A stretch of 33,952 bases of DNA from Candidatus Poribacteria bacterium (GTDB lineage Bacteria; Poribacteria; WGA-4E; WGA-3G). How positions within the stretch are numbered: the stretch's first letter is position 1; each line of letters starts with the position of its first letter. The translations under genes and the position numbers were made by a program. Below the pieces are notes generated by a model. It ran no database searches. It worked only from the letters and a program-made list of their open reading frames with translations, and was not told the origin of the DNA. Location: contig VYCT01000319.1 in NCBI GenBank assembly GCA_009843785.1, positions 1-33,952 on the forward strand, read 5' to 3'. Below are positions 15,393-18,663 of the stretch, piece after piece.

Positions 15393-16013
15393 ATGCAGAA
15401 ACTTACGCATCTTTTAAGCATCGTTCTCGCAGCACTATTCGCGCTTGCCGTGAGCAGCTGCGACGAATCCATGACAAACCAAATGGACCGCGTCGTCACG
15501 GATACCGATCCACCGACCGAGCAACCCATGGCACCGACCACCACAGAACCCGTGGCACCACCAACTGAACCTGTAGTAACAACACCTGAACCGCTACCAC
15601 CGCTCCCGGAAGGCACCGTCGTCTTCGTCGAACCCCGACGCGTGACATCTCCTGCCGCCGGAGAGCAACTGCAGGTACATATCAATGTCAAAGACGCTGC
15701 AGATGTACTCGCTTACGAAGTGCGGGTCGGTTTCGATCCGACTGCGCTTCGGTATGTGAGTATTGCGAATGCGGATTACCTGCCCGCGGGTGCCTTTGCT
15801 GCGCCGCCGCAAGTTTCAGTGGACAGCATCTACCTCGCGACTACGTCGGTTGCAGGTTCGGCAACAGCAGCAAATGGCACACTTGCAACCGTAACATTTG
15901 AGGTGGTAGCCGCCAAAGCCTCCACGATTACACTCATTGATGTGCTGCTCTCCGATAGCAACATCACGCGGTTGACATTGCAAACAGCAAACGGCAACAT
16001 TAGCGCGCCGTAG
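15393..16013 (+). CDS. Putative lipoprotein with Pro/Thr-rich stalk and cohesin-like domain
   Basis: Signal peptide ending LAVSSC; linker TDPPTEQPMAPTTTEPVAPPTEPVV...; cohesin-like VFVEPRRVTSPAAGEQLQVHINVKDAADVLAYEVRVGFDPTALRYVSIANADYLPAGAF. Confidence 0.75.
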   Translation: MQKLTHLLSIVLAALFALAVSSCDESMTNQMDRVVTDTDPPTEQPMAPTTTEPVAPPTEPVVTTPEPLPPLPEGTVVFVEPRRVTSPAAGEQLQVHINVKDAADVLAYEVRVGFDPTALRYVSIANADYLPAGAFAAPPQVSVDSIYLATTSVAGSATAANGTLATVTFEVVAAKASTITLIDVLLSDSNITRLTLQTANGNISAP

Positions 16014-16072
16014 GGGGTTTTTGCTTGGGTATTTTTTCAGGGTTGCCTCGCCTGTTCAGCCTGTTCGTAGTA

Positions 16073-16189
16073 GGGCGATTTATCGCCCGTTCAGATTCAT
16101 CGCCTGTTCACGAGGAAACATAACCGAAATAGTAGGGGCGAGGTTGCCTCGCCCGTTCAACCGGTTCGTAGTAGGGCGATTCATCGCCC
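16073..16189 (+). repeat. Cluster of REP-like hairpins (GTAGGGGCG...CGCCCGTTC family)
   Basis: GGGCGAT-TT-ATCGCCC (16073-16088), GGGCGAGG-TTG-CCTCGCCC (16136-16154), GGGCGAT-TC-ATCGCCC (16174-16189), in similar TTCGTAGTA...GTTC flanks. Confidence 0.9.
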
Positions 16190-16219
16190 GTTCACAACAA
16201 AACAAAAAAGGAGTCTCTC

Positions 16220-17029
16220 ATGAAAACCCAACGTTTCAAACCTGTTCGCGAGAAAATCATCTGCTCGTTTAGCCTTCTCACCCTCTGTTTCGGGTGGACC
16301 GTGATGAGCCACGCGAGTGCAGTCGTCTCTGTCCAACCTACAACACCTGAAACGCCGAAAATCGGTGAACACCTCGCAGTGCAAGTCAATATCATAGGCG
16401 GCGAAACCGTCGCAGGTTACCAATTCACACTGGCGTTCGATCCTGCAGCGTTACGCTACGTCTCCGCTGCGGATGCGGGGTACTTTCCTTCAGGTGCCTA
16501 CACAGTCCCACTTCCTAAAGATCAAGACATCACCGTGGTTGCTGCTGCGCTGAAAGGCACTGCGACAGCACCGGATGGCACGCTCGCAACCGTGACGTTT
16601 GAAGTGCTGACACCGAACCCATTTAGCAGCCTCCATCTGACAGACGTTATCCTATCGGACGCGACTGCGACTGCGTTAGATGTGCGGTTTATCGGTAAAC
16701 ACGACGGCACAGAACTGTGGCCCCTCACACCGCCTGAAGAGACGGCGATGTTGCCGAACTATCCGAACCCGTTCAACCCAGAGACATGGATACCGTATCA
16801 GTTGGCGGCTCCTGCCGAGGTGACCTTGACGATTTACGGGCCCACTGGACACGTCGTCCGGACATTAGCATTAGGGCATCAAGCTGCGGGTGTCTATGCC
16901 TCGAAAAGCCGTGCGGCGTATTGGGACGGCAGGAACGACATCGGTGAACGCGTCGCGAGCGGTCTGTATTTCTACACATTGACCGCTGGAGGTTTTAACG
17001 CCACCGGCAAGATGCTCATCATGAAATGA
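16220..17029 (+). CDS. Secreted cohesin-like protein with C-terminal sorting (T9SS type A / FlgD-like) domain
   Basis: Signal peptide; VVSVQPTTPETPKIGEHLAVQVNIIGGETVAGYQFTLAFDPAALRYVSAADAGYFPSGAY; C-term LPNYPNPFNPETWIPYQLAAPAEVTLTIYGPTGHVVRTL...GLYFYTLTAGGFNATGKMLIMK. Confidence 0.8.
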   Translation: MKTQRFKPVREKIICSFSLLTLCFGWTVMSHASAVVSVQPTTPETPKIGEHLAVQVNIIGGETVAGYQFTLAFDPAALRYVSAADAGYFPSGAYTVPLPKDQDITVVAAALKGTATAPDGTLATVTFEVLTPNPFSSLHLTDVILSDATATALDVRFIGKHDGTELWPLTPPEETAMLPNYPNPFNPETWIPYQLAAPAEVTLTIYGPTGHVVRTLALGHQAAGVYASKSRAAYWDGRNDIGERVASGLYFYTLTAGGFNATGKMLIMK

Positions 17030-17057
17030 TACTATTTCTGTAACCCTGTTCGTAGTA

Positions 17058-17080
17058 GGGAAACCATTCATGGTTCTCCC
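17058..17080 (+). repeat. REP-like hairpin, same family
   Basis: gttcgtagtaGGGAAACCAT-TC-ATGGTTcTCCCgttc (one bulged C). Confidence 0.75.
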
Positions 17081-17190
17081 GTTCTGACCCGTGGACGTGC
17101 GATAATGCACTTTGCATTTGGGTGAGTACACCGCAAAATCGCACGACTCCGAACGAATCTATCTTTAGAATGAGTATAGGGAGATAACGC

Positions 17191-18663
17191 ATGAAAACTT
17201 TATTGAAAAGAAACCTATTTTTCAGTTGCCTTGTATTGTTACTGTGTTTCAGCATAACCGCACTCAGTTATGGGCAAGCCGTGGTCTCCATAGACCCTGC
17301 AAAAGTGGCTTCGCCGGCAGCTGGGGCACAATTCAGCGTGAACATCAAGATAGCCAACGGCAACGGTGTTGCCGGCTATGATGTGACAATCGCGTTTGAT
17401 ACAACGGCATTGGAATATGTTGAGATCAAGAACGCGGATTACCTACCTACAGGTGCATTTGCTGCGCCCCCGCAAGTGTCAGGTAACCGTGTAACGCTTG
17501 CGGCGACCTCGGTATCCGGTGCGGCATCCGCGACGAGCGGCACCTTGGCAGTGCTAACTTTCAAAGTCGTAGCTGCGAAAGCCTCAACACTCCAATTAGT
17601 AGAGGTGATCCTCTCCGACAGTGCTGCGAACGCGTTAGCCGTGACGAAACGAGACAGTGAAGTGGTTGTCGGTGCATCGCTGCCGACGGATCTGAATGGT
17701 GATGGTGCCGTGAACGTTTTGGACCTTGTGCGTGTGGCACAAGACCTCGGTAAGACGGGTTCGCTTGCGAGTGATGTGACCGGTGATGGCAAGGTAAATG
17801 TATTAGATCTTGTGCGTGTGGCACAAGACCTCGGTAAGAGAGTTGGCGGCGGTGGAGCCGTGCCTCCAACGAACGGTGGGAGTACCACGTCCCCTCCGGC
17901 TGTTGATCCGTATAAAAGGATGGAGCTGATTCCTGCTGGCGAGTTCCGTATGGGGAGTAATGAGGGGAACAATGAAAAACCGATTCATTCTGTCTACGTA
18001 GATGCTTTCTACATGGATAAATATGAAGTAACCAATTCCGAATATGCCGAGTTTCTGAATGCGAAAGGCAAACATAGCGATGGGAGTATCACGTGGTTGG
18101 ATATTGGTGCGGATAGGTGCCGTATAGAATATGTGAGTCGTGTCTACCGTGCAAAAGCAGGGTACGAGAACCACCCTGTCGTTGAGGTGAGTTGGTATGG
18201 TGCGATGGCATACTCGGAATGGAAAGGCAAGCGTCTGCCGACAGAAGCGGAATGGGAGAAGGCTGCGCGCGGGGGTTTATCGGGTCTGAAATACCCGTGG
18301 GGCAATGCGATAAATTCCACGAATGCCAACTACAATAGTCATGTTAAGGACACCACGGCGGTAGGTAAATATGCTGCGAATGGATATGGTCTGTTCGACA
18401 TGTCTGGTAACGTATGGGAATGGTGCTTGGACGAGTATAATGGGAATTTCTATTCAGTGTCGCCGGCTCAGAACCCCTTGTCAGGTGCGAATAGCATTCA
18501 GTGGTTATTAGATAACTATACAGGAGTTAATACATCCCGCGTGTTGCGCGGCGGTTCCTGGCCCCATAGTGCACCCCTCGTGCGGGTCGCCAACCGCATC
18601 AGCAATACGCCTACGACTACGAGCTACTACTACGGTTTTCGTTTCGCGAGGGCTGTTGAGTAA
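17191..18663 (+). CDS. DGR target protein: signal peptide, cohesin-like domain, dockerin-like double repeat, C-terminal FGE-sulfatase (C-type-lectin-like fold) domain with variable region
   Basis: VVSIDPAKVASPAAGAQFSVNIKIANGNGVAGYDVTIAFDTTALEYVEIKNADYLPTGAF; TDLNGDGAVNVLDLVRVAQDLGKTGSLASDVTGDGKVNVLDLVRVAQDLGKR; MELIPAGEFRMGSNEGNNEKPIHSVYVDAFYMDKYEVTNSEYAEFL...RLPTEAEWEKAARGG...GNVWEWCLDEY...SRVLRGGSW...GFRFARAVE. Confidence 0.93.
   Translation: MKTLLKRNLFFSCLVLLLCFSITALSYGQAVVSIDPAKVASPAAGAQFSVNIKIANGNGVAGYDVTIAFDTTALEYVEIKNADYLPTGAFAAPPQVSGNRVTLAATSVSGAASATSGTLAVLTFKVVAAKASTLQLVEVILSDSAANALAVTKRDSEVVVGASLPTDLNGDGAVNVLDLVRVAQDLGKTGSLASDVTGDGKVNVLDLVRVAQDLGKRVGGGGAVPPTNGGSTTSPPAVDPYKRMELIPAGEFRMGSNEGNNEKPIHSVYVDAFYMDKYEVTNSEYAEFLNAKGKHSDGSITWLDIGADRCRIEYVSRVYRAKAGYENHPVVEVSWYGAMAYSEWKGKRLPTEAEWEKAARGGLSGLKYPWGNAINSTNANYNSHVKDTTAVGKYAANGYGLFDMSGNVWEWCLDEYNGNFYSVSPAQNPLSGANSIQWLLDNYTGVNTSRVLRGGSWPHSAPLVRVANRISNTPTTTSYYYGFRFARAVE
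17725..17839 (+). repeat. 31-nt direct repeat within the dockerin-like segment
   Basis: cttgtgcgtgtggcacaagacctcggtaaga at 17725-17755 and 17809-17839; encodes LVRVAQDLGK twice. Confidence 0.95.
18535..18657 (+). repeat. DGR variable region (VR), at the 3' end of the target gene
   Basis: Gap-free alignment to 20258-20380: 18 mismatches in 123 nt, 16 at TR adenines (5 A>C, 5 A>G, 6 A>T); the 2 non-A mismatches lie in the last 14 nt. Confidence 0.96.

Follow-up and report, generated by a model that had tools for sequence, protein, structure and literature searches.

A diversity-generating retroelement in Candidatus Poribacteria whose target carries cohesin and dockerin modules beside a cohesin lipoprotein

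Gene content of the block and its retroelement

We analyzed a 33,952-nt stretch of DNA from Candidatus Poribacteria (assembly GCA_009843785.1, contig VYCT01000319.1), referred to here as the window; the genome to which it belongs is designated G000. A block at positions 15393-20381, all on the + strand, comprises in order a cohesin lipoprotein gene, a gene for a second cohesin protein with a FlgD-like tail, the target gene of a diversity-generating retroelement (DGR), the accessory gene avd, a reverse transcriptase (RT) gene and a template repeat (TR). A first-pass annotation had placed three cohesin modules, a dockerin and a DGR here, and these assignments, with their coordinates, were borne out by curated Pfam/NCBIfam models above cut-off and by adenine-only changes between the TR and the variable repeat (VR). 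Both repeats end in a region resembling the initiation of mutagenic homing element (IMH in the VR, IMH* in the TR). The features are as follows, with approximate ranges in parentheses given as residues.

15393-16013, + strand: lipoprotein with lipobox AVSSC (Cys23), a Pro/Thr-rich stalk (~38-75) and a C-terminal cohesin (~76-204; Pfam Cohesin, 46.4 bits)
16220-17029, + strand: secreted cohesin protein with a C-terminal FlgD_ig / type IX secretion system (T9SS) type A-like sorting tail (~181-267; Pfam, TIGR04183)
17191-18663, + strand: DGR target of 490 aa, with signal peptide, cohesin (~30-158), dockerin (~163-216), linker and a formylglycine-generating enzyme (FGE)/C-type lectin (CLec) domain (~241-488), delimited by Pfam, AlphaFold and a 97-member family
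17278-17664, + strand: target cohesin (~30-158; PF00963, 43.3 bits)
17677-17838, + strand: target dockerin (163-216; PF00404, 35.7 bits), with two F-hand repeats, DLNGDGAVNVLD and DVTGDGKVNVLD
18535-18658, + strand: VR at the 3' end of the target gene, 85% identical to the TR and terminating in the IMH-like 3' homology region
18786-19133, + strand: Avd accessory protein (NF033474 DivGenRetAVD, 114.8 bits against a cut-off of 80; Pfam bAvd, 77.4 bits)
19130-20191, + strand: DGR reverse transcriptase with motifs IGNLTSQ and YMDD (Pfam RVT_1, 87.8 bits)
20258-20381, + strand: TR, rich in AAC/AAT codons, with an IMH*-like 3' end (repeat comparison with the VR)

The block contains a complete DGR (Avd, RT and TR) that is predicted to diversify the C-terminal FGE/CLec domain of the target. 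An RT adjoins Avd, a TR is present, the VR lies within the target gene, and TR-to-VR changes are restricted to TR adenines: within the first 108 nt, all 14 of the 14 differences fell at such positions (p = 1.9e-9), a pattern that rules out a chance repeat as the origin of the pair. The other differences lie within the 3' homology region (TR GCGAAGACTCTTG versus VR GCGAGGGCTGTTG); there the related loci under comparison showed nearly the same contrast between TR and VR, which is what IMH* and IMH should show. Relatives showed the same bias, with 20 of 20 differences at adenine sites in G064, 15 of 15 in G030 and 15 of 17 in G075. Over 97 proteins with the target's architecture, codons at TR adenines had a mean entropy of 3.09 bits, as against 0.73 for the remaining codons of the VR and 0.95 outside it; such divergence from species to species is indirect evidence of active retrohoming. 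The RT is the sole RVT_1 match in its genome and has orthologues, 82-90% identical, in five other Poribacteria; a PADLOC search returned generic RT matches only.

Several observations on related repeats and cassettes are recorded here. One non-adenine TR/VR difference, G to T at 18644, turns the cysteine of the family's GFRC motif (kept in 93 of 97 members) into Phe485. On another contig of the same genome (G000:C276:2136-3801), a second VR, ~80% identical to the TR and with 17 of 22 differences at TR adenines, lies in a lipoprotein-FGE gene that has a truncated Avd after it; this VR is a candidate remote target or, alternatively, may be what is left of a second DGR cassette lacking an RT. Locus L096 (G066:C31, 8042-10518) keeps the block entire, Avd and TR included, except that its RT is internally deleted to ~72 remaining C-terminal residues; its TR has fewer adenines and its TR/VR differences are weakly adenine-biased, which makes it a natural dead DGR. 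The single genome G030 (loci L217 and L095) has numerous genes for FGE and dockerin-FGE proteins, with 11 strong matches, and one DGR RT, possibly a multi-target DGR.

Modules of the target and of the neighboring cohesin proteins

The three Pfam domains of the target (Cohesin, 43.3 bits; Dockerin_1, 35.7 bits against a cut-off of 22.9; FGE-sulfatase, 211.6 bits) occurred together in ~100 of the best 120 database relatives, mostly of ~490 aa, and the name given to members by NCBI, 'SUMF1/EgtB/PvdO family nonheme iron enzyme', conceals both the DGR and the dockerin. An AlphaFold model of the target (predicted local distance difference test, pLDDT, 82) comprised a cohesin-like beta domain, two dockerin helices (176-184 and 204-212) and the FGE domain, with the linker (~217-240) disordered at 220-238; the fold search with this model was dominated by the FGE half and uninformative on cohesin/dockerin packing. 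The two Ca-loop dockerin repeats that the first-pass annotation had quoted are those of a type I dockerin (PF00404), and eight Ca ligands, D167/N169/D171/N175/D178 in the first loop and D195/D199/D206 in the second, were identical in 97 of 97 homologues. The family profile matched solved dockerins including 1ohz_B, 2ccl_B and 2y3n_B. It also matched solved cohesins, and in 2ozn it matched the cohesin of NagJ along with the dockerin that partners it. Curated cut-offs, the fold search and the invariant ligands together rule out spurious cohesin and dockerin matches.

The FGE half, by its Pfam score and by its best PDB matches, which were FGE crystal structures, might be taken for an active formylglycine-generating or related oxidase to which the DGR-like repeat is incidental. 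That explanation is scarcely credible and was rejected: the CHESYC segment of solved FGEs, with its catalytic/copper-binding Cys pair, aligned to Cys-free VR residues that are hypervariable in the 97 homologues, and TvpA, a DGR variable protein, was also matched. Because the TR-adenine codons are hypervariable and the Cys segment of real FGEs aligns to variable residues, the FGE half is most likely a binding scaffold under diversification rather than an enzyme. FGE has been described as one of the subtypes of CLec that DGR variable proteins employ (PMC6328139, PMC10907252).

For the pair of genes upstream of the target, the first-pass annotation had proposed a stalked cohesin lipoprotein and a cohesin protein with a C-terminal sorting domain; both descriptions held, on the Pfam Cohesin model, the lipobox and TIGR04183. 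All three cohesins of the block exceeded the PF00963 cut-off of 24.1 bits (46.4, 40.2 and 43.3 bits in gene order). Cys23 of the lipoprotein was invariant in 79 aligned homologues, 76 of which carried the lipobox pattern. Structure prediction, which the annotation had named as a check, recovered the fold of the lipoprotein cohesin (pLDDT ~95-98) along with the two dockerin helices of the target, and all 50 listed PDB matches to the lipoprotein (Foldseek) were cohesins or cohesin-bearing chains, including the archaeal non-cellulosomal 2xdh. A profile scan of metagenomes with the lipoprotein gave mostly weak matches. Four variants of it (P0123, P0133, P0209 and P0128) were seen: two with tandem, scaffoldin-like cohesins, one with a stalk dockerin and one apparent lipoprotein/target recombinant. 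The protein at 16220-17029 matched FlgD_ig (39.9 bits, cut-off 27) and the T9SS type A sorting domain (TIGR04183, 26.5 bits, cut-off 23), and a homologue lies between the lipoprotein and the target in G066, G064, G075 and G077 as well. A 2219-aa SprA-like protein in the genome was a weak match (58.9 bits against a cut-off of 200).

Elsewhere in the window, a gene of unknown family (14294-15253) lies upstream of the lipoprotein and is 80% identical to one in the same position in G064 (L132). Two 53-bp direct repeats (16041-16093 and 16142-16194; 92%) separate the lipoprotein gene from the second cohesin gene, each bearing a palindrome of the type GGGCGATNNATCGCCC, of which there are just five genome-wide. 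Downstream of the DGR are two FG-GAP / ASPIC-UnbV repeat proteins (21368-23029 and 24685-27078), candidate surface proteins. A promoter/terminator scan gave results near shuffled expectation.

Linkage, separate histories and proposed display of the binder

The reading that we favor, with somewhat better than even confidence, is that the hypervariable binder is displayed through the lipoprotein cohesin. The chromosomal DGR would diversify the ligand face of an FGE-subtype CLec domain at ~14-18 residues, this domain being the exchangeable tip of a secreted protein of cohesin, dockerin and FGE modules, while the adjoining gene would supply a lipid-anchored, Pro/Thr-stalked cohesin. With Ca2+, the target dockerin would dock into this cohesin, so that the binder would be held non-covalently at the envelope without a lipid anchor of its own; the cohesin protein with the T9SS-like tail is probably a further docking or cell-surface component. 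Cohesin-dockerin binding in trans, its Ca dependence, the outward orientation and the bound ligand are elements that we infer.

Gene linkage is consistent with this reading. Among 89 Poribacteria genomes, the lipoprotein adjoined the target in 6 of 7 loci, placing a cell-attached cohesin beside its potential dockerin cargo. Close orthologues (E value below 1e-60) in G000, G077, G064, G066 and G075 each had a cohesin-dockerin-FGE gene as neighbor, the gene of the FlgD-tail cohesin lying between the two, with the block of G064 being split over two contig ends with its contiguity inferred. In G029, from another genus, one FlgD-tail cohesin and one lipoprotein cohesin accompanied four tandem cohesin-dockerin-FGE genes. 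Two of these four (L215, G029:C2:1410000-1429500) have a double FGE, and the VRs of this locus look DGR-diversified; an RT was looked for in the G029 genome and not found. With contigs recognized by their lengths, the lipoprotein was also present on 30 of 89 target contigs, some of just 5-13 kb, against 0 or 1 in shifted controls; since 17 candidates per genome were scored in the target search, its counts are lower bounds.

Domain histories were compared by pairwise distance correlations, not tree reconciliations. Over 97 targets, cohesin and dockerin distances were strongly correlated (0.87), as were those of the two FGE halves (0.85), whereas cohesin or dockerin against FGE gave 0.09-0.16; for the closest 60 targets the corresponding values were 0.24-0.31 for cohesin or dockerin against FGE and 0.45 between the FGE halves. 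These correlations indicate that the FGE half and the cohesin-dockerin half have separate histories. Across 21 paired loci, the lipoprotein cohesin tracked the target cohesin (r = 0.53) and dockerin (0.55) but not the FGE domain (0.02), and the dockerin retained a residual correlation of 0.21 with the lipoprotein cohesin given the target cohesin (permutation p = 0.009). Physical nearness alone predicts the opposite, because the FGE domain shares a gene with the dockerin.

The same FGE domain is found on other mounts. Lipobox patterns were present in 0 of 97 cohesin-dockerin-FGE targets, whereas the C276 target of G000 and the RT-adjacent target of G075/L002 are themselves lipoproteins, which share this FGE and lack a dockerin; this contrast fits a dockerin that stands in for the lipid anchor. 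In G058 and G030 a different N-terminal domain precedes the dockerin and FGE, so the FGE tip is mounted via a lipobox, via cohesin-dockerin or via another domain plus dockerin. A broader proposal, to which we give slightly less than even credence, is plug-in display, in which lipid-anchored cohesins, single or double, hold interchangeable dockerin-tagged, DGR-rewritten FGE domains, FGE cassettes move from one display module to another, and one lipoprotein gene serves as many as four binder genes.

Several points weigh against display through the lipoprotein cohesin. Its linkage to the target could reflect plain operon structure; one solitary cohesin-dockerin-FGE gene of G029 has no lipoprotein adjoining it, and the dockerin-FGE targets of G058 and G030 have no adjoining cohesin gene. 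The lipobox +2 residue is Asp in 33 lipoprotein homologues, and in E. coli Asp at this position means inner-membrane retention, a rule that may not be that of Poribacteria. Moreover, a dockerin came immediately after the cohesin, within one open reading frame, for 15 of 19 cohesins in G000 and for 11 of 12 and 10 of 11 in two closed relatives, such tandems being attached to proteins resembling (by eye) WD40, leucine-rich repeat, peptidase and cytochrome proteins, and the linker from the target cohesin to the first Ca ligand is ~8-9 residues, compatible with a fixed tandem. The target dockerin may thus serve the cohesin of its own chain, tandems being the rule of the phylum with many partners.

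On these grounds, the target cohesin and dockerin could form an intramolecular, Ca-stabilized spacer that holds the FGE domain and has no docking role, any display then proceeding by another route. The short, constant linker, the recurrence of the tandem with many unrelated partner domains and the tightly coupled histories of the two modules all speak for such a unit, which we nevertheless consider unlikely: dockerins outnumbered cohesins 57:19, 74:12 and 68:11 in the three genomes, most of them without a cis partner, cohesin-free dockerin-FGE targets exist, and dockerin-free lipoprotein cohesins are both linked to targets and track them. This three- to six-fold excess implies that most dockerins act in trans or are purely structural. 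All four dockerin-free cohesins of G000 lie near dockerin genes (C291 twice, C289 and C253); at G000:C289:1-4322, a lipoprotein cohesin is flanked by a pair of cohesin-dockerin proteins that have CxxxCH motifs and poly-Asp tails.

A further alternative is that the target self-associates in trans, as head-to-tail chains or oligomers, or joins a wider cohesin-dockerin network, giving multivalent display with the lipoprotein as one cap. Both modules occur on a single chain, four targets accompany a single lipoprotein in the G029 array, and the two dockerin repeats are near-identical and share their recognition residues (VL-AQ-K / VL-AQ-K), the sole such pair among the genome's 39 well-formed dockerins. 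Having both modules per chain is, however, generic in the phylum, and the dockerin codes of the genome differ by small steps only; the genome-wide comparison of codes was not decisive, and we judge this alternative rather improbable. The first-pass suggestion that the target might be self-polymerizing because one chain has both partners was likewise non-specific, given how widespread tandems are, and is unsupported.

Comparison with known systems

Searches of the open-access literature, which is an incomplete sample, yielded no paper joining DGRs to cohesins or dockerins and nothing relevant on Poribacteria DGRs; as far as that literature was searched, a DGR with a cohesin-dockerin-FGE target is an undescribed architecture. 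A cohesin/dockerin profile search of 77 non-poribacterial DGR loci (L005-L081) gave no match, and the one regular-expression match (L070) was not convincing. To our knowledge, cellular DGR targets with experimental support are surface proteins that are lipidated directly. If display through the lipoprotein cohesin is correct, a DGR with a dockerin-tagged target beside a lipid-anchored cohesin would uncouple the diversified binder from its anchor, allowing exchange and multivalency, and would be a natural system joining two favorites of protein engineering, DGR diversification and cohesin-dockerin assembly. In sponge symbionts such as these bacteria, variable recognition of the sponge, of phage or of neighbors is plausible.

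Non-cellulosomal cohesin systems offer one comparison. Both halves of the Clostridium perfringens NagJ/hyaluronidase complex (2ozn) were matched by the family profile, and Archaeoglobus fulgidus 2xdh was one of the top fold matches to the lipoprotein, but these systems have no DGR, no lipoprotein partner gene and other cargo. With cellulosome scaffoldins and type I pairs (1ohz, 2vn5) the block shares the cohesin fold, duplicated F-hands and a cell-attached cohesin with separate dockerin cargo, and some of the lipoproteins carry two cohesins. It differs in that the anchor is a lipoprotein, the block is without cellulases and the putative cargo is predicted to be a hypervariable binder.

The closest counterparts on the DGR side are TvpA of Treponema denticola and LdtA of Legionella pneumophila, which have been called outer-membrane lipoproteins (PMC10907252). 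They share with the target the Avd-RT-TR cassette, adenine mutagenesis, an envelope protein as its object and, for TvpA, the FGE-subtype CLec domain, and the lipoprotein-FGE targets of C276, G075 and L002 are exactly of their kind. Unlike TvpA and LdtA, the target in the window lacks a lipobox and bears cohesin and dockerin modules, the lipid anchor being located on a separate, adjoining cohesin protein.

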